From Selenomonadales bacterium (GTDB taxonomy: Bacteria > Bacillota > Negativicutes > Sporomusales > UBA7701): DNA of 45,513 nucleotides. The position numbers and the translations under genes were made by a program. The stretch's first letter is position 1, and each line of letters begins with the position of its first letter. The notes beneath the pieces are model-generated. The model was given only the letters and a program-made list of their open reading frames with translations. It ran no database searches and had not been told where the DNA came from. Positions 7,898-45,513 of this stretch are shown here, piece by piece. The DNA is taken from the NCBI GenBank assembly GCA_029975165.1, contig JARKPR010000050.1, positions 1 through 45,513 of the forward strand, written 5' to 3'.

Positions 7898-8134
7898 ATA
7901 AAAAGCCTCCTCCCTAAAGGGACGAGGTTATCTCGCGGTACCACCCTACTTGCCTTCTGCCACTCGAAACGTCTAACGCCCGTCACGCGGCGGAGCCTAC
8001 TGCCTTCGGTCCGCGGCTCGGGAGTGATCTTCGCCGCATCCGTCCTGCCGGGCTCCCACCGCCCCCGGCTCGCTGTGAAGACTCAGACCGCTATTGTCTC
8101 CGTCATTGCCTTTGCCCTATGGAAATACTGTATA
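7898..8134 (-). promoter_or_regulatory. T-box riboswitch, isoleucine-specific, upstream of ileS
   Basis: On the minus strand the conserved T-box AGGGTGGTACCGCG is at 7934-7947, followed by a terminator hairpin (7904-7929, stem CCTCGTCCC/GGGAGGAGG with one mismatch) and a T-run. The likely specifier triplet is ATC (Ile) at 8026-8028 within GAAGATCACTCC, which fits the downstream gene. Uncharged tRNA-Ile should favour the antiterminator and so ileS expression. Confidence 0.92.
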
Positions 8135-14320: not shown

Positions 14321-14360
14321 TTTTTATGAATTTCCATATTTTTTTACATAACGGCTATGC

Positions 14361-15701
14361 TCACAACGGCAGATAAGTCAGGACAGCCGTCCCCGCCAGC
14401 GTCGCCGCGACCGTGAAAGCCCAGTTCTGGCGGAAGCTGGCCGCAATGGGATCGCCCCTGGTAAGGCTGACGACGACAAGGCTGATTATCGAAAAAGGCG
14501 ACATATTCGCGTACGCCACATAACCCATCGTCAAAGCTCCCGCCATCTGGACCGGCGTCAGCGCCACGCTGCCCGGCGGCAGCGCTATCGCCAGCGTCGA
14601 AATGGTGAGGAACGGATGCAAGCCGAACAGGCACGGAAAAGCCGTCAGAAAAGTGATCAGCGGGATGAGCGTCAACGGCGAATCGAAGCCCAGATACTCG
14701 ATAACGGGCACGATATAATGCTTCACGTCCGTCAACCCCAAGGCATAACCGCAGAAACCGAACGCCGTGAACAGGATCATCTCCCCGTAGGCATTCGGCA
14801 AAGAGACCTTGAAATACTCCCGCAGCCGGGCGCGATAGACGCCCAGGCGGGAAAACAGCAGCGCCAGCAGCAGCGGCCCGGCGAACGACACCAGCGGCAC
14901 GGTGACGAGCGCGCTCTTGCGGGTAAAATACTGGAGCAGGGAGATAACGACGCTCAGGACCGCCAACTGGAGGAAAAGCTTCCCCATCATCACCGCCAGC
15001 CGGCCATCCGTGCCTTCCCCGTCCTCCTGCCCACGGCCGGCGAACTCCACCGCCCCGAACGCCAGCGCGACCGCGAAGGTCGCAACCGCCAGCGCGGCGC
15101 CCCCGGGGAGCATCTCGAACCAGGTGAGGCCGGCGTACTGCATCACGATCGCCACCGAAATGAACGCCGGCGACCAGAGCATATTGGCCGAAATACCCCG
15201 GATCAGCGACTTTTCCACCGCCCCGGCGGGGTACTTCCCGGCCACATCCTTAAGCAGATTATAGACGAACGGCAGCCCCCCCACGTTCAGCAGCGACGTC
15301 AGCGCGGACGTAAACCCCAGGCTGACCGCGTAAAACTGGAACGGCGACCTGGCCAAGCGGGGCAGGCTCGTGCACAACACCTCGTGATAGCGCTCGAAAT
15401 GGAGCGGGATGGTAAACAGCGACACCGCCAGCAGCAGGCTGATGATCGAGGCGTTGTTGAGCATGGCGGCCACCCAGTCCCCGGCCGATGCCCCGCTCAC
15501 CACGAGCAGCGCCGTTCCCACAACCGTGAGCACCGCGCTCACATACCTGCTGGCCCTCTTCATCTTGCCGTAGGCGATGGCATGGACGCCGGCCATCGCG
15601 GCCAGCATCACGCCGCGGCCGGCGGACGACGGATAAAACGCGTCCACGAGATACGTCACAAGATAAACGAACAGCAGCGCGCTCAACGCCTTTGCCTGCA
15701 T
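14361..15701 (-). CDS. Uncharacterised polytopic permease, paralogue A
   Basis: A 446-aa protein with roughly 11-12 membrane segments and no soluble domain. It is about half identical by eye to the gene at 18154-19488; shared blocks include SPFQFYA, NVGGLPFVYNLLKDVA, LWSPAFISVAIVMQYAG, RKSALVTVPLVSFAGPLLLA, FLTAFPCLFGLHPFLTIST and IALPPGSVALTPVQMAG. The repeated pattern of long helices and a P-C-L-F-G-H loop is like transporters of the ion-transporter superfamily, but I cannot name the family. The ATG at 15701 follows GGAGG by about 11 bases. It is alone on its transcript as far as visible, unlike its paralogue. Confidence 0.7.
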   Translation of the reverse strand: MQAKALSALLFVYLVTYLVDAFYPSSAGRGVMLAAMAGVHAIAYGKMKRASRYVSAVLTVVGTALLVVSGASAGDWVAAMLNNASIISLLLAVSLFTIPLHFERYHEVLCTSLPRLARSPFQFYAVSLGFTSALTSLLNVGGLPFVYNLLKDVAGKYPAGAVEKSLIRGISANMLWSPAFISVAIVMQYAGLTWFEMLPGGAALAVATFAVALAFGAVEFAGRGQEDGEGTDGRLAVMMGKLFLQLAVLSVVISLLQYFTRKSALVTVPLVSFAGPLLLALLFSRLGVYRARLREYFKVSLPNAYGEMILFTAFGFCGYALGLTDVKHYIVPVIEYLGFDSPLTLIPLITFLTAFPCLFGLHPFLTISTLAIALPPGSVALTPVQMAGALTMGYVAYANMSPFSIISLVVVSLTRGDPIAASFRQNWAFTVAATLAGTAVLTYLPL

Positions 15702-38362: not shown

Positions 38363-38577
38363 GCCGTTCCCTCCCAATTACCATAATATTGCCTAATGAA
38401 ACTATACGACAATCTGCGCCGATATCCTGCTCAGGCGGTTTCGGACCGGCTCCCCCTCCCCCATGCCATTTTGTATTTTGTATTTTCTGCGGAAAAAACC
38501 CCGCGGCACAAGGAAATGCGCACCGCCCTGCGAATATACAAGGAATACCCCAGTTCCCGAGAACAGGAGGTCGGCTT

Positions 38578-39669
38578 ATGATTGGACACTATCTCATCGG
38601 ACTACCGGTCGAACAGCTCCCCACCCCCGCCCTGGTGCTCGACTACGAAGCCTTCATGGCCAACATTGCAACCATGGGCGACTACCTCGCCAAAGCCAAG
38701 GTCAACATCCGCCCCCACGCCAAAACGCACAAGACCCCGGCCATCGGCCACATCCAGATGAATGCCGGCGCCATCGGCCTATGCTGTGCCACGATCGGCG
38801 AAGCCGAAGTCATGGTCTATGCCGGCATCGGCAACATCCTCGTCGCCACCGAAGTCGTCGGCGCCGCCGCCATCAGGCGGCTCGCCTGCCTCGCCCGCCA
38901 CGCCCGGATAATGGTCGTCGTCGACGACCCGGCCAACGCCCGCGACCTCTCCGCGGCGGCGACGCAATACGGCGCCACCCTCCACGTCCTCGTCGACCTC
39001 GACGTCGGCCAGGGCCGCTGCGGCCTCCGCAGCATCGACCGGCTCGTCGACCTCGGCAAGCTCGTCGACAAACTGCCCGGGCTGGAATTCCGGGGCGCCT
39101 TCGGCTACGAAGGCCACGTGCAATTCATCCCCGACCGCGCCGAACGCACCAAACAGGGCCAAGCCGCCAACGCCCTCCTCGTGCAGGGGGCCAAGGCGCT
39201 GGCGGCCGCCGGGCTGCCGGTCGACATCGTCAGCGGCGCCGGCACCGGCACCTACGACATCGCCGCCGCCTTCCCCGGCATCACGGAAATCCAGGCCGGC
39301 TCCTACATCTTCATGGACGGCACGTACCAAAAGCTCGGCCTGCCCTTCAAACAAGCCCTCACCGTGCTGGCGACGGTCGTCAGCCGGCCGACCGACGACC
39401 TCGCCATCTGCGACGTCGGCCTCAAGGGCATCTCCCCCGAACGGTTCAACCCGTCCGTCCAGGGGCACGAAAACGCCATCGAAGTGCAGAAGCTCTCCGA
39501 GGAGCATGCCAACGCCCGCCTTAGCGGCGGCCTCGACCCCCGTCCCGGCGACAAGCTGCATTTCATCCCCAGCCATTGCTGCACCACCGTAAACCTTTAC
39601 GACAACCTGTTCGTCACCCGCGGCGGCATCGTCGAGGCCATCTGGCCGATCGCCGCCCGGCGGGCGTAA
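38578..39669 (+). CDS. D-threonine aldolase / D-serine dehydratase (DSD1) family enzyme
   Basis: A 363-aa fold-type III PLP enzyme. ATG 38578 follows AGGAGG by 7 bases. LPTPALVLDYEAFMANI at residue 14 and NIRPHAKTHKTP carry the PLP lysine (Lys49). Metal ligands are predicted at His333 and Cys335 in PSHCCTTVN, with the C-terminal LYDNLFVTRGGIVEAIWPIAARR. Relatives cleave D-threonine or deaminate D-serine, both with a divalent metal. It is first in an operon with an N-acyl-D-amino-acid deacylase and a permease, which supports a role in D-amino-acid use. Confidence 0.88.
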   Translation: MIGHYLIGLPVEQLPTPALVLDYEAFMANIATMGDYLAKAKVNIRPHAKTHKTPAIGHIQMNAGAIGLCCATIGEAEVMVYAGIGNILVATEVVGAAAIRRLACLARHARIMVVVDDPANARDLSAAATQYGATLHVLVDLDVGQGRCGLRSIDRLVDLGKLVDKLPGLEFRGAFGYEGHVQFIPDRAERTKQGQAANALLVQGAKALAAAGLPVDIVSGAGTGTYDIAAAFPGITEIQAGSYIFMDGTYQKLGLPFKQALTVLATVVSRPTDDLAICDVGLKGISPERFNPSVQGHENAIEVQKLSEEHANARLSGGLDPRPGDKLHFIPSHCCTTVNLYDNLFVTRGGIVEAIWPIAARRA

Positions 39670-39701
39670 ACCACTATAACGAAGAAAAGGTGGCGGGTGT
39701 T

Positions 39702-41297
39702 TTGAACAAACTGCTCATACGCAACGCGACAATCATCGACGGCACCGGCCGGCCGGGTTTCCCGGGCGACATCGCCGTCGACGGCGACACGATCGCCGCG
39801 GTCGGCGCCAAGCTCGACGCCGCGGGCCGGACCGTCCTCGACGCCGCCGGCCTGGTCGCCGCCCCCGGCTTCATCGACCTCCATACCCATACCGACCGCA
39901 AAATCTTCGACAATCCCCGCGGCGACAGCAAAATCATGCAGGGCGTCACCACCGAAGTAACCGGCAACTGCGGCGTCGGGCCCTTCCCGGCGCGGCCGGG
40001 CCGGCTGGCCGAACTCGAAACCTACCTCAACACGCTCAGCGGTTCCCTGCCCGCCGCCGGCATCACCTGGACCGACTTCGCCAGCTTCGCCGCCACCGTC
40101 GAGAAGCTCGACCCCGGCATCAACCTGGCGATGCTCGTCGCCCACGGCGCGCTCCGGATCGCCGCCGTCGGCCTCGCCGACCGGCCCCCCGCGGCCGAAG
40201 AACTAGCCCTGATGGAGGAAATGCTCGCCACCGCTCTCGAGCAGGGCGCCTGGGGCATGTCCACCGGCCTGGTTTACCCGCCGGGCAGCTTCGCCAAAAC
40301 CGACGAACTCATCGCCCTCGGCAAGGTGCTGGCCAAGCACCGGGCCCTCTACACCAGCCATATCCGGGGCGAAAGCGCCACCCTCCAGGCCGCCGTCGAC
40401 GAAGCGATCGCCATCGGGCGGGAAAGCGGCGTACGCGTCGAAATCTCCCACCTCAAAGCCATCGGCAAACCCTTCTGGGGCCAGGGTCTCGCGGCGCTCC
40501 GCCGCATCGAGGAAGCCCGGCGGCAGGGCGTCGACATCTGGGCGGACCAATACCCCTACGAGGCGACCGCCACCGCCCTCACCCGCCTCGTGCCCGACTG
40601 GGCCCACGACGGCGGCACGAACGACATGCTCAAGCGCCTGCAGGACCGCGACCTGGTGCCGCGGCTCGACGAGGAGATCGGCCGGGAGATGAACGTGCGC
40701 GGCGGGCCCGAGCGGGTCAAAATCTCCTACCTGACCACCAAAGGCAACGAACGCTGGATCGGCAAAACGATCGCCGACGTCGCCGCCGACCGCAACATAC
40801 CGGCCGTCGAGGCCGTTCGCCAACTACTCCTCGAAGAAAACGGGCGGGTCAACGCCGTCTACTTCTCCCTCGGCACCGACGACCTTGAAGGCATCATCCG
40901 CAACCCGGACGTGGCCGTCGGCAGCGACGGCCAGGTCATGAGCCCGGAGCGGGACGGGCTCGAAAACGTGCATCCCCGCTCCTACGGCACCTTCCCGCGG
41001 GTCCTCGGCCGCTTCGTGCGGGAACAAGGGCTGCTGCCGCTCGAGACAGCCGTCCGCAAGATGACCGCCCTGCCGGCGGCCATCCTCCGCCTCCCCGACC
41101 GGGGGACGATCAAACCCGGCTACAAGGCCGACATCACCCTGTTCGACCCGGCCACCGTCCTCGACACGGCCGACTTCGACCAGCCGCACCGCTACCCGGC
41201 CGGCATCCCCCACGTCATAATCAACGGCACCATCGCCGTCAAAGACGCGCGCCTCACCGGCGACGGCCGGGGCTCCGTACTGCGCAAGACACGCTGA
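39702..41297 (+). CDS. N-acyl-D-amino-acid deacylase
   Basis: A 531-aa amidohydrolase. TTG 39702 is preferred (AAAGGTGG eight bases upstream; starts LNKLLIRNATIIDGTG). The metal-binding HTH is at 61-63 (FIDLHTHTDRK), the bridging cysteine is Cys90 in TGNCGVGPF, further ligands are the His residues in YTSHIRGES and ISHLKAIG, and the catalytic aspartate is in AVGSDGQV. It removes acyl groups from N-acyl-D-amino acids, giving a free D-amino acid for the neighbouring PLP enzyme. The gap to that gene is 32 bases. Confidence 0.92.
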   Translation: MNKLLIRNATIIDGTGRPGFPGDIAVDGDTIAAVGAKLDAAGRTVLDAAGLVAAPGFIDLHTHTDRKIFDNPRGDSKIMQGVTTEVTGNCGVGPFPARPGRLAELETYLNTLSGSLPAAGITWTDFASFAATVEKLDPGINLAMLVAHGALRIAAVGLADRPPAAEELALMEEMLATALEQGAWGMSTGLVYPPGSFAKTDELIALGKVLAKHRALYTSHIRGESATLQAAVDEAIAIGRESGVRVEISHLKAIGKPFWGQGLAALRRIEEARRQGVDIWADQYPYEATATALTRLVPDWAHDGGTNDMLKRLQDRDLVPRLDEEIGREMNVRGGPERVKISYLTTKGNERWIGKTIADVAADRNIPAVEAVRQLLLEENGRVNAVYFSLGTDDLEGIIRNPDVAVGSDGQVMSPERDGLENVHPRSYGTFPRVLGRFVREQGLLPLETAVRKMTALPAAILRLPDRGTIKPGYKADITLFDPATVLDTADFDQPHRYPAGIPHVIINGTIAVKDARLTGDGRGSVLRKTR

Positions 41298-41351
41298 TAT
41301 ACCCGGACAACAGAGACGTTCCAAAATAATTAGATGGAGGGTTCAAAAAAC

Positions 41352-42665
41352 ATGGATGCGGGATTTAATATCTGGTGGGGACTTGTCGGCCTTATTCCTC
41401 TGCTGCTCTACATCGTGCTCGTGCTGCGCGAAATGGACCCGCTGCCGGCCACCATCCTTTGCGTGGCCCTCGGTGCGATCATAAACGCCAAGAGCATGGT
41501 CGCCATCGGCGCCGACCTGACGAAAGCCATGGGCTCCTTCCTGGGGCTGGTCGGGCTCATAATCATGCTCGGCCGCGGCCTCGGCGAAGTCCTGTCCGAG
41601 ACCAGGGTGGCCCACACCCTCGTCTACAAAATCCTGTACGGCATCGGCGTCAACACCCAGAAAAAAGCCATGCTGGGGATAATGGCGGCGACGCTGGTCA
41701 TCGTCGGCCTGCTGGGCACCATGGCCGGCGGGGTCGCGATCATCGCCCCGATCGTCAACCCCATCGCCGCCACGGTCGGCCTCACCCCCGCAGTGGTGGG
41801 CGTACTCTACCAGGCTGTCGGCGAGGAGGCCCTCACCCTCGGGCCGTTCACCCCGCCGGTCGTCACCCTCGTCGGCCTCACCAAGCTCGACTACGGCACC
41901 ATGCTGATCACCACCGCCCTCCCCATCGCCGTCATCACCCTGATCGTCACCTGGGTCATGGCCCAGCGCATCCAGCAGCGCACCAAAGAAAAAGAAAGCT
42001 TCGAAATAGCGGCCGCCCCGGCGGACGATCCCGCCGCCTACGCCACGCCGCAAAGCCGCCGGGCGACCAACGTCTTCCTCGTCCTCTTCCTCGCCCTCAT
42101 CGTCTACGGCATCGCGATCAAAGCGGCCACCCCGTACGTCATCACCGTCATGCTCGGCCTGTCCTTCGTCGTCGGCCTCGTCGGCGGCATGAAATTCGAA
42201 CAAATCTGCAAGACCGTAGTCAAAGGGATGGCCGGCAACGTCGGCCTCTTCCTCCTGTTCATCCTCCTCGAGCTCTTCTTCAACTACGTCGAACTGGCCG
42301 GCGGCTTCAAGGCCCTCACCTACCTGCTCATGCCGCTCGTCAACATCGGCGGCAAGGTCGCCGTCGTCATCGCCGGCGGCGTCCTCGGCGGCTTCGGCAT
42401 CGCCGGCGCGGTCGTCGCCGAGCTCATGACCCTGCACAAGGTTTTCAGCCATCTGCTCACCGAATACGGCGTCTCCATGATCGCCTGGAGCGTGGCCCTC
42501 ATCGTGGCCACCAGGGTCACGAACTTCATCATCCCCGGCGCCAACATGGTAGCCATGATGGGCTTCGCCCAGTCCAAAAACCTCAAAGCCATGATGACCA
42601 ACGGCTGGGTCGTAGCCATCGCCCAAACCGTCCTCCTCGTCATCTACGCCCTCGTCTTCCGGTAA
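41352..42665 (+). CDS. Permease of the D-amino-acid operon (NhaC/GntP-like ion-transporter fold)
   Basis: A 437-aa protein with about 11-12 hydrophobic segments. ATG 41352 has GGAGGG at about ten bases. Segments ending GLVGLIIMLGRGLGEVLSETR, then GTMAGGVAIIAPIVNPIAATVGLTP, GEEALTLGPFTPPVVTLVG and a late GGFGIAGAVVAELMTLHKVFSHLL resemble GntP/NhaC-type symporters. In this operon it most likely imports the N-acyl-D-amino acid or D-amino acid used by the two enzymes; direct evidence is lacking. A terminator follows at 42683. Confidence 0.75.
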   Translation: MDAGFNIWWGLVGLIPLLLYIVLVLREMDPLPATILCVALGAIINAKSMVAIGADLTKAMGSFLGLVGLIIMLGRGLGEVLSETRVAHTLVYKILYGIGVNTQKKAMLGIMAATLVIVGLLGTMAGGVAIIAPIVNPIAATVGLTPAVVGVLYQAVGEEALTLGPFTPPVVTLVGLTKLDYGTMLITTALPIAVITLIVTWVMAQRIQQRTKEKESFEIAAAPADDPAAYATPQSRRATNVFLVLFLALIVYGIAIKAATPYVITVMLGLSFVVGLVGGMKFEQICKTVVKGMAGNVGLFLLFILLELFFNYVELAGGFKALTYLLMPLVNIGGKVAVVIAGGVLGGFGIAGAVVAELMTLHKVFSHLLTEYGVSMIAWSVALIVATRVTNFIIPGANMVAMMGFAQSKNLKAMMTNGWVVAIAQTVLLVIYALVFR

Positions 42666-42891: not shown

Positions 42892-42917
42892 AGGTAACAC
42901 AATCTACTTATGTTACT
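42892..42917 (+). repeat. Left 26-bp inverted repeat (putative recombination site)
   Basis: A 26-bp sequence starting AGGTAACAC and ending TATGTTACT; the exact reverse complement is at 43668-43693. Its ends GTAACA and TGTTAC are inverted around an asymmetric 11-bp centre (CAATCTACTTA), as in a tyrosine-recombinase core site. Confidence 0.9.
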
Positions 42918-43027
42918 CGATAGTTATTTCCCCAGAGCTAAAATTCATCTTTTTTTCATATTTCTCCTTTCTTTCGACATATTTTTTATTATTAATTTAC
43001 CCATCTTTTTCCGCTTCACAAATGTCT

Positions 43028-43576
43028 TCATAAATTTAGCGTAATATACACATTATCCAATTCGTCCTTGGTAATTCCCAAGTAAGCCAGCGTTACACTG
43101 GGGGCCGAATGATTAAGCAGCTTCTGAATTTTCGTCACGTCCACCCCGTTCTTATATGCCCAGTAGCCGAACGTTTTGCGCAAGGTGTGCGTTCCGATGG
43201 CCTCTTTGATATTTATCGAACGCGCCGCGCGATTTATGATGCGATAAGCTTGGATTCGCGTGATAGGGCGATCGCCCTTTTTGCTTTTAAATAGCCAATT
43301 GCTCTGATATTCAATATTGTCAAGGTACTTCTGAATCGCCTTTTTGCATGTATCGGAAAGAGGGAAATCCTTGATTTTGCTGGTCTTTTTTTCCCGGAGG
43401 ACAATTCTGTCCTTTCCCTTCACATCATCTATTTTCAATGACAATAAATCGGAAATCCGCAGACCGCTGTTGATACCTAAAACAAAAAGCAGGTAATCGC
43501 GCAGACTTCTGCTCTCTAAATAATATTTAATGGCCTCGATCTGTTTCTTGCTGCGAATCGGTTCTACATACTCCAT
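43028..43576 (-). CDS. Minimal tyrosine recombinase/integrase
   Basis: A 182-aa site-specific recombinase from ATG 43576 (AGGAGA ten bases upstream; a GTG at 43585 is too close). It has almost only the catalytic domain, as in FimB/FimE. Catalytic residues: Arg40 (NSGLRISDLLSL), Lys64 in EKKTSK, His130 and Arg133 (HTLRKTFGYW), His156 (LLNHSAP) and nucleophile Tyr165 (TLAYLG). The usual N-terminal core-binding domain of XerC/D is missing. Codon use is AT-rich, unlike its neighbours, so it is probably transferred. It lies within perfect inverted repeats, its probable targets. A promoter is at 43613-43641. Confidence 0.92.
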   Translation of the reverse strand: MEYVEPIRSKKQIEAIKYYLESRSLRDYLLFVLGINSGLRISDLLSLKIDDVKGKDRIVLREKKTSKIKDFPLSDTCKKAIQKYLDNIEYQSNWLFKSKKGDRPITRIQAYRIINRAARSINIKEAIGTHTLRKTFGYWAYKNGVDVTKIQKLLNHSAPSVTLAYLGITKDELDNVYITLNL

Positions 43577-43612
43577 TCTGATCACATCTCCTAAAGTCGC
43601 ATATTATTTTTG

Positions 43613-43641
43613 AGTATATAATATGTTGCCGGCGTTGGCAA
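43613..43641 (-). promoter_or_regulatory. Putative promoter of the recombinase, inside the cassette
   Basis: TTGCCA (43636-43641) and TATACT (43613-43618) are 17 bases apart on the minus strand. It fires leftward, away from the chemoreceptor; inversion would point it rightward. Confidence 0.55.
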
Positions 43642-43667
43642 AACGGCGGTAACGCCTTATCGGGCAA

Positions 43668-43693
43668 AGTAACATAAGTAGATTGTGTTACCT
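43668..43693 (-). repeat. Right 26-bp inverted repeat (putative recombination site)
   Basis: The exact reverse complement of 42892-42917. It ends 102 bases before the chemoreceptor start codon. Confidence 0.9.
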
Positions 43694-43713
43694 GAGAACA
43701 GCCTGCGGGGGCA

Positions 43714-43749
43714 AAAACTCTCCCCAAAGTATCACTTGGGGAGAGTTTT
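43714..43749. terminator. Strong hairpin in the chemoreceptor leader
   Basis: AAAACTCTCCCCAA and TTGGGGAGAGTTTT form a perfect 14-bp stem with loop AGTATCAC. The T-run is four on the plus strand and five on the minus strand, so it can terminate in both directions, though less strongly rightward. It separates the cassette from the chemoreceptor gene. Confidence 0.75.
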
Positions 43750-43794
43750 ACATACAAAAATCTATTATCACGGAATTTGTTGGAGGTGTATTCG

Positions 43795-45513
43795 ATGTCA
43801 TGGTTTCGCAATTTCAAAACAGCGGTCAAAATCATCATTCTCATCTCTGTTACTGCGGTATTCCTGGCAGGAGTCGGGTACGTAGGCTATTATTACAGCG
43901 GAAAACTCAGCGACGACCTGGAAAAAACGTACAAGGACAGCCTGCTGCCGATAAAATGGCTGAACGCGGCCCGCGGTCAGTCCAGGGCCGTCGAAGGACT
44001 CGTGCTGAAATTGGCTCATCCCGACTCGACAAAAGACCAGGAAGCCGCCTTCCTTAAAGAAATCGAGGAGCGGACCCAGGGAATCAACCAATTGCTGGCT
44101 GAATACGAAAAAACAGTCAATACTGACTTTGAAAGGCAGAATTTCCCCGTCGTGAAGGATTCGCTGAATAAATGGCGCCAGGAGAGAGCCAAAATAATCG
44201 AACTCGCCCAGGCCGGAAAAAAGGCGGAAGCCTTTGATCATTACCGCAAATACGGCGACGAGGTTATGGATACCCTCAACGGGACCTTGGAAAAGCTGGC
44301 CGATTTTAACGCCGCCGCAGCCGAAAAGCTGCACCAAAACGGTGAGAAGGACGCCGCAACCGCCGCCAGGATGATTGTCGGCATAAGCGTGGCGGCGGTG
44401 CTCCTGGCGTTGATGCTGGGCCTTACCATAGCGAGGATGATCGCCAACCCGCTCAACATAATGCTGGAAAACGTGCAAACGGTTGCGGCCGGCAACCTTA
44501 CGGTCCGGCCGCTCAACATGAAATCCCGGGACGAAGTGGGGCAACTGGCCGTGGCCTTCGATACGATGGTGGCCAATTTGCGGACCGTTGTCCGTCATGT
44601 GTCCCAGGCAGCCGAACAAGTGGCGGCCGCCAGCGAAGAACTTACCGCCAGCTCGGAACAATCGGCGCAGGCCGCCAACCAGATTGCCGCCTCCATCACC
44701 GGCGTCGCCAACGGCGCCGGCGAACAACTGGCGGCAGCCACCGAAACCTCCGCGGTCGTTGAACAGATGTCGGCCGGCATCCAGCAGGTGGCGGCCAACG
44801 CCAATCAGGTGGCGACCCAGTCGGCGCAAGCCGCCGACCAGGCCGACGCCGGCGGCGCGGCGGTGGAAAAAGCAGTCGGCCAAATGGGGACAATCGCCGA
44901 TTCTTCCCAGGTTGTCGCGGAAGCGATCGGCAAATTAAGCGACAAATCCAAGGAAATAGGGCAAATCGTCGATACGATAGCAGGCATCGCCGGCCAAACA
45001 AACCTCCTGGCCCTCAACGCCGCCATCGAGGCCGCCCGCGCCGGCGAGCAGGGCCGCGGTTTCTCGGTGGTCGCCGAAGAAGTCCGCACACTGGCCGAGC
45101 AGTCCCAGCGGGCCGCCGAACAGATCGGCGCCATCATCGGCGACATGCTCGGCGACATCGGCGGCGTCGTCCAGGCCTTCGCCGGCACCAGCGCGGCCGT
45201 CGGCAACGGCGTCGCGACCATCAACCGGGCCAACGCCAGCTTCGGCGAAATCACCGCCAACATCGGCGTGACCGCCGACAAGGTCGCCGAGGCCGTCGCC
45301 ATGGCCGACCGCCAGTCGCTGGCCGCCGCCAGCATCAAGGAAGCCGTCCAGAACGTCGCCGCCGTCGCCGAGCAGTCGGCCGCCGCCACCGAGACCACCG
45401 CCGCCAGCGCCCAGCAGGTCAACGCCGCCATCGACGGCATCGCCGCCAGCGCCCAGGACCTCTCGCGGGTGGCCGACGAACTCCAGCAGTCGGTGCTCAA
45501 ATTCAAACTGTAA
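43795..45513 (+). CDS. Methyl-accepting chemotaxis protein with 4-helix-bundle sensor
   Basis: A 572-aa inner-membrane chemoreceptor. ATG 43795 follows GGAGG by nine bases. TM1 is about residues 10-34, a four-helix-bundle ligand domain 35-190, TM2 192-214, HAMP 215-268 ([13 protein letters not shown] then [13 protein letters not shown]), and a long signalling coiled coil with the tip [20 protein letters not shown] near residue 396. No ligand residues can be named. No clear promoter lies between its start and the leader hairpin. The last third uses almost only G/C-ending codons, unlike the sensor part. The gene is complete and ends at the window edge. Confidence 0.96.

Follow-up and report, generated by a model that had tools for sequence, protein, structure and literature searches.

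In Salmonella, the serine recombinase Hin is encoded inside an invertible segment of about 1 kb, which is bounded by 26-bp inverted hix sites and carries an outward promoter, and the enzyme works with Fis and an enhancer. The segment of the E. coli fim switch is 296 bp long (PMC5903667); the fimB and fimE genes lie outside it. At a fimbrial locus of Providencia stuartii, a putative invertible segment of 844 bp encloses a recombinase between 14-bp imperfect repeats (PMC5903667), and in Anaerotignum propionicum, Clostridium thermocellum and Desulfitobacterium dehalogenans the same paper described read-based signatures of inversion beside genes for MCPs, chemotaxis proteins and HD-type phosphodiesterases, so that neither inversion near MCP and HD genes nor an enclosed recombinase is new by itself. 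In Clostridioides difficile, the pdcB and pdcC switches have inversion sites upstream of c-di-GMP phosphodiesterase genes (PMC9286219). Chemoreceptor repertoires are usually treated as fixed for a given strain and tuned by methylation. The literature that we searched, which left most subscription papers out of scope, gave no description of the cassette family reported here or of its chemoreceptor switching.

The locus lies in a stretch of 45,513 nucleotides from a Selenomonadales bacterium, the whole of which we call the window. Two 26-nt inverted repeats, 100% complementary and with arms 750 nt apart, were found at 42892–42917 (plus strand) and 43668–43693 (minus strand); by our own arithmetic (about 45513 squared / 2 x 4^-26), the chance expectation for such a repeat is approximately 2e-7. 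Each has the form GTAACA-11 nt-TGTTAC with an asymmetric center, and each holds a 23-bp core recombination site (42894–42916 on the left, 43669–43691 on the right, target side) recognized by the family consensus GTAACAnAAnnnnnTTnTGTTAC. The sole substantial gene between them, on the minus strand, encodes a Phage_integrase (PF00589) protein, a tyrosine recombinase with intact Arg, Lys-region, HxxR, His and Tyr motifs, which occupies 43028–43576 from an ATG (182 aa) or begins at a GTG at 43585 (185 aa). Beyond the right repeat, 102 bp separate position 43693 from the start of a chemoreceptor (MCP) gene, the presumed switch target, on the plus strand at 43795–45513 (4HB_MCP_1, HAMP and MCPsignal in Pfam). 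Its ATG at 43795 is preceded by a ribosome-binding site recognized by eye, and the open reading frame opens at a TTG at 43777. A preliminary description of the window had claimed two perfect 26-bp repeats with GTAACA/TGTTAC arms around an asymmetric center, exactly one gene between them, a minimal tyrosine recombinase with all catalytic residues, and a gap of 102 bases to a chemotaxis receptor gene, and all of these claims held. Its likening of the locus to Hin, made with the remark that the recombinase is of the other class, holds for the layout only. On the other side of the cassette, the region 38389–42665 resembles a cluster for D-amino-acid use, with D-threonine aldolase-like and N-acyl-D-amino-acid deacylase-like genes named by eye and a GntP-family permease (Pfam); a T-box leader (RF00230, 105.9 bits in Rfam) lies at 7915–8115 on the minus strand.

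Set against Hin and hix, the window has the same layout, with the gene inside the segment, 26-bp inverted sites, and a putative outward promoter aimed at the neighbor in one orientation, but its enzyme is a tyrosine recombinase and its target a chemoreceptor, whereas Hin is a serine recombinase that works with Fis and an enhancer. As the enzyme is a tyrosine recombinase with plasmid and phage relatives, we use 'Hin-like' for the layout only. The protein does not qualify for the Hin family: in Pfam it matches PF00589 alone, and its NCBIfam matches include no model of a serine recombinase. FimB and FimE are likewise small tyrosine recombinases, but the NCBIfam models for tyrosine-type DNA invertases match the window protein far below their cut-offs (NF007370, 55.6 bits against 221; NF007371, 51.4 against 222), and membership of the FimB/FimE type was not met either. 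The fim switch is resembled instead by recombinase-less segments of 195–262 bp that we describe below, although their target differs and the fim recombinase genes are outside the switch. The P. stuartii segment shares the enclosed recombinase with the window and differs in its fimbrial surroundings and its short imperfect repeats. In the three Firmicutes noted above the inversions adjoin the classes of gene found here, but the relevant section of that paper names no recombinase, site family or mechanism. The C. difficile sites, in a different species, lie by c-di-GMP phosphodiesterase genes, and HD-domain genes are common targets of the Negativicutes cassettes.

The match to PF00589 spans residues 13–171 of 185 (E 6.1e-31, above cut-off), which satisfies membership of the tyrosine recombinases and leaves a protein little bigger than the catalytic domain alone; the top-scoring solved chains are the XerC-like 4a8e and XerA 5hxy. 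With the source genome counted each time, homologs are present in 12 of the 28 genomes searched from the order (E<=1e-30), 30 of 380 from the class (E<=1e-60) and 9 of 398 sampled from the phylum (E<=1e-55). In a tree of 55 recombinases, the 25 from cassettes, all in Negativicutes, form one clade (SH-aLRT 98), the labels change once compared with a mean of 18.4 when shuffled, and all 25 retain the R, HxxR, H/W and Y motifs. Both sites are seen for 22 of these 25, and three have lost one site to a contig end. The set of 22 complete cassettes described below is not quite the same: L052 belongs to it and is absent from the tree, its recombinase frame being broken; the tree in turn counts as cassettes L090 and the three loci that lack a site at a contig end (L039, L085 and L088), which stand outside the 22; and L124, which has a broken gene, is in neither set. 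Stops are written X in the tree rows. Rows outside the cassette clade have no site or one site by the family consensus. Five related non-cassette recombinases have a single site 141–165 bp upstream, and a sixth, L149, has one about 160 bp upstream of its gene, found after the tree had been labeled and hence still marked 'no site' there. Relatives abound on plasmids, with 814 records at E<=1e-20, and on phages, with 145 at E<=1e-15; the closest of those listed is 67.2% identical. From this we infer that a plasmid or phage origin of the cassette recombinases is possible. One distant recombinase, at L057:7744–8600 (39% identity), has an inverted repeat of its own (25 nt, one mismatch) and an HD-domain gene beyond, and it could perhaps represent a second, divergent cassette lineage.

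The source genome itself contains a second cassette (G000:C41:28112–28879), in which a 76% identical recombinase lies inside its own inverted sites, followed by an MCP gene and then CheW; the sites have the same arms as those of the window and a different center. Rfam searches at gathering thresholds gave no match near either source-genome cassette (window and L005 searched). Across the family, an MCP or HD-domain gene adjoins 21 of the 22 complete cassettes. The target is an MCP or MCP-like gene in 11 (the window, L005, L036, L037, L038, L041, L042, L052, L079, L082 and L091), with an IS110-like gene, named by eye, intervening in L036, and an HD-domain gene in 10 (L040, L043, L078, L081, L083, L084, L086, L087, L089 and L094), three of which (L043, L081 and L087) have an MCP gene after it and two of which (L078 and L086) place it about 500 bp from the cassette. 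In the remaining cassette, L080, the neighbor is a sigma-factor-like gene (L080:6505–7092, in G119) with Sigma70_r2 and Sigma70_r4_2 domains (Pfam). Among the non-cassette relatives, only 1 of 21 (L057) has an MCP or HD gene among its nearest listed genes. The target side was assigned by us as the side whose nearest gene start faces the cassette, and target genes were named by blastp against the window MCP and an HD protein, with Pfam run on eight of them (window MCP, L038, L040, L043, L078, L079, L080 and L094). Several of the 22 cassettes are orthologous (L084 and L089, for example) and are not independent.

The sites follow the consensus GTAACAnAA(5)TTnTGTTAC. Their central 9 bp are identical within 36 of 37 pairs and in just 22 of 666 combinations between pairs; 21 distinct centers occur, and when sites were re-dealt the matching pairs averaged 2.2 with a maximum of 9. 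Most of the differences within pairs (14 of 17) fall on the two degenerate arm positions. Some of the 37 pairs are orthologous, so not all rows are independent. Strand exchange with central homology would maintain such equality. The genome-wide site count is a lower bound, as 10 genomes were covered with a tighter center and one mismatch, which passes over a few looser matches. Unpaired sites also occur: one at G107:C4:207020–207042 has the center of a cassette 66 kb away on the same contig, and there are single sites in G102, G106 and other genomes.

The most direct evidence for inversion comes from two comparisons between relatives. The loci L122 (G098) and L123 (G099) have collinear flanks that are 92–97% identical, between which the cassette (14345–15174) aligns inverted at 95.5%, and in each genome the cassette is on a single contig of 5.0–5.4 Mb. 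Similarly, a 284-bp segment is inverted between L102 (G098) and L108 (G101) with the flanks collinear. A bounded segment found in both orientations is one criterion for a DNA-inversion switch, which these relatives satisfy and which has not been shown for the window itself. The preliminary description had proposed that inversion could switch receptor expression and that relatives should be searched for the opposite orientation; that search was positive, for a cassette and for a small segment, and the idea is supported to that extent, with inversion in the source genome and any effect on the MCP remaining inferences.

Draft assemblies provide further, indirect evidence. Fourteen contig ends in seven genomes coincide exactly with a terminal base of a site (G100:C9, C36, C51 and C53; G101:C43; G104:C10 and C18; G105:C359; G119:C29 and C68; G121:C7, C16 and C21; G174:C6), three others are within 4 bp of a site (G004:C27 and C87; G107:C4), and two contigs start inside one (G010:C63 and G101:C117). 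In G121, the 125 bases with which C7 ends at the site reappear at the start of C40, as is expected where an assembly graph forks. A 23-bp repeat alone should not fork a long-k-mer graph; DNA in mixed orientations would. Among the 30 segments in the 17 drafts first collected, 8 were broken compared with 0.45 expected, a count that rests on rounded genome sizes, contig numbers and a hand tally; one of the eight breaks (G107) ends 3 bp outside the segment, and G100, G104, G121 and G004, found later, were excluded. Larger, shufflon-type inversions involving third sites (G101:C117, G101:C43, G174:C6 and G010:C63) were considered and dropped, the runs of N there being scaffold joins. In the source genome, examined as an assembly without reads, there was no inversion or contig break at either cassette, both being in one orientation on unbroken contigs. 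The recombinase reads away from the MCP gene in both of these cassettes, and away from the target in 19 of the 22 complete ones, and for these reasons inversion may be rare or biased. The best relative of the window MCP in five other genomes of the family is only 35% identical, so no empty-site comparison was possible.

Genome-wide site searches also revealed inverted site pairs without a recombinase. Thirteen intact ones were examined, and 12 of them, at seven distinct loci, precede either an MCP gene or an HD-domain gene that has an MCP or MCP-like gene after it; that of L117 precedes a 57.7% relative (570 aa) of the window MCP. The thirteenth, L115, has no MCP or HD gene in view, a contig end cutting one flank 70 bp from the site and the 3' end of a gene facing the site on the other. 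Among 40 genomes of the class that lacked a recombinase match at the order (1e-30) or class (1e-60) threshold, 33 have no site and seven have sites. Of those seven, G100, G104 and G121 have contigs that stop on a site at both flanks of a cassette locus, which makes a gap in the assembly, and not absence from the cell, the probable explanation for the missing cassette. Two loci appear intermediate: L124, with a split recombinase between sites 884 bp apart, and L125, with recombinase fragments between sites 465 bp apart, each followed by an MCP gene recognized by eye. They hint at a possible route from cassette to small switch.

Between the 3' end of the recombinase gene and the left site, 25 nt from the latter, lies an outward promoter-like motif (AGGAGAAATATGAAAAAAAGATGAATT, 42942–42968, minus strand), whose promoter function is inferred. 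In 19 of 22 cassettes, the stretch from the recombinase stop to the site contains an outward motif of the form [AG]GGA-N16-18-G[AT]A; shuffled sequences gave a mean of 1.4 and a maximum of 7, and the other three readings gave 0, 0 and 1 of 22. The test is partly circular, because the pattern was derived from these same, related sequences. The motif points away from the target in 16 cassettes, the window included, and toward it in three (L078, L086 and L089), and is absent from three (L080, L082 and L094); the match in L081 sits in a purine-rich run and may be another motif. It is present in all 12 small segments tested, pointing away from the target in 11 and toward it in L108, the inverted one, whose orthologs L102 and L105 have it pointing away from the MCP. 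L124 and L125 were left out of this count; L124 has one match, pointing away from the MCP, and L125 has one in mid-segment, pointing toward the MCP, where the recombinase remnants also lie. The sequence AGGA...GAAT/CGTA resembles the sigma-H consensus, and 'Sigma-H-like' is our own label; AGGAWWW had no match in the literature searched. As the motif of the window points away from the MCP, we read the present state as OFF, and if the motif is a promoter, which is possible, inversion would aim it at the MCP; promoter activity and the ON and OFF labels are inferred from sequence alone. The recombinase has a promoter-like site of its own, TTGCCA-17-TATACT (43613–43641, minus strand), the second hexamer (-10) of which adjoins a half-site-like stretch, GCAACATA. 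By a strict pattern, such a stretch (GTAACATA or GCAACATA) lies beside the recombinase -10 in 10 of 22 cassettes, and it might serve autoregulation.

Folding at the junctions gave a less uniform picture. In the window, the target-side junction forms no palindrome extension in either state (-23.5 kcal/mol at present, -21.2 when flipped). The present junction folds more stably than the flipped one in every one of the 11 'away' small segments, with the reverse in L108, and in 9 of the 11 the site palindrome has an extension of at least 4 bases in the present state and of no more than 1 after flipping, for example in L102 and L107, where a T-run follows. It is conceivable, as a model prediction, that this extended palindrome would act as a terminator in the OFF state. 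Among the 19 cassettes whose recombinase reads away from the target, 15 fold more stably now (exceptions L041, L087, L091 and L094) and 7 have an extension of at least 4 bases, and the three whose recombinase reads toward it would fold more stably when flipped. Some segments (L040, L091, L103, L104 and L110) have an extended palindrome at the far site too, where the terminator idea does not need one. Because the terminator logic is mixed across the family and fails for the window, we keep it out of our core claim. Repeat search and folding also identified, beyond the invertible segment, a hairpin in the MCP leader whose stem is 14 bp long (43714–43749, plus strand); the leader (43694–43800) has a folding z of -2.81, with 1 of 200 shuffles as stable. 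A weak T-run follows this hairpin, which stays put in both orientations. Its role is unexplained, and we can only suggest, from prediction, that a constant leader hairpin might weaken or gate MCP expression in either state.

We suggest that the window contains a working, or recently working, self-contained phase-variation switch of a chemoreceptor, a reading to which we give a probability of about 0.84 and in which the effect on expression is inferred. The sites, the clade, the pair-matched centers, the association with target genes and the opposite orientations in relatives are established. In the proposed mechanism, the recombinase would bind the two inverted sites around its own gene and invert the 0.8-kb segment, with strand exchange at the center of the sites, where the two members of a pair have to agree. 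In the orientation seen in the window, the outward promoter would fire away from the MCP (OFF) and the recombinase would be transcribed leftward; after inversion, the promoter would fire through the proximal site into the MCP (ON), with the recombinase reading the same way. Some of the relatives may form a hairpin across the proximal site in OFF and lose it on inversion. Promoter activity, inversion in the source strain and any effect on the MCP lack support from reads or expression data.

The alternative that survives best, though we consider it unlikely, is that the locus descends from a switch and has become locked in the source strain, with sites and gene persisting without inversion. The single orientation and unbroken contigs of both source-genome cassettes are consistent with this, as are the decayed cassettes of relatives (the split gene of L124 and the remnant of L125), but the perfect 26-bp repeats and intact catalytic motifs of the window argue against it. 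Less plausible is a mobile element, in which the repeats would be transposon-like ends and the recombinase would move the cassette to new places. The recombinase's relatives on plasmids and phages would fit this, as would the fact that the MCP and HD genes behind the cassettes vary from genus to genus; yet centers differ between cassettes while matching within pairs, which suits site-specific recombination better than the ends of one transposon, the orthologous locus of G098 and G099 keeps its cassette in place while inverting, recombinase-less segments are retained with both sites, and no flanking target duplication is visible by eye in the window. That the repeats are mere operators for autoregulation of the recombinase, any rearrangement being incidental, draws on the half-site-like stretches by the -10 and on the single sites upstream of five non-cassette relatives, but is very unlikely given a far site behind the recombinase 3' end without obvious operator use, both orientations in relatives, and small site pairs that precede MCP genes without any recombinase gene.

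Returning to the phase-variation switch, a bolder reading extends it to the family, and we lean toward it, as one joint claim, by a narrow margin. It holds that Negativicutes have a phase-variation regulon for chemosensing and HD-domain (probably c-di-GMP) signaling; that one tyrosine recombinase clade, from plasmid or phage relatives of which some have a single site upstream, became self-inverting cassettes ahead of chemoreceptor and HD genes; and that loss of the recombinase leaves 200-bp switches that are flipped in trans by an intact cassette elsewhere in the genome. If this is true, cells of one clone would carry different receptor sets. The system would also offer a tractable model for the spread of a self-carried switch into a multi-locus regulon, in which cassette, decaying cassette and satellite can all still be seen, and a family of recombinases that flip promoters ahead of chemoreceptor and HD-domain genes would allow a clone to hedge its bets in what it senses.
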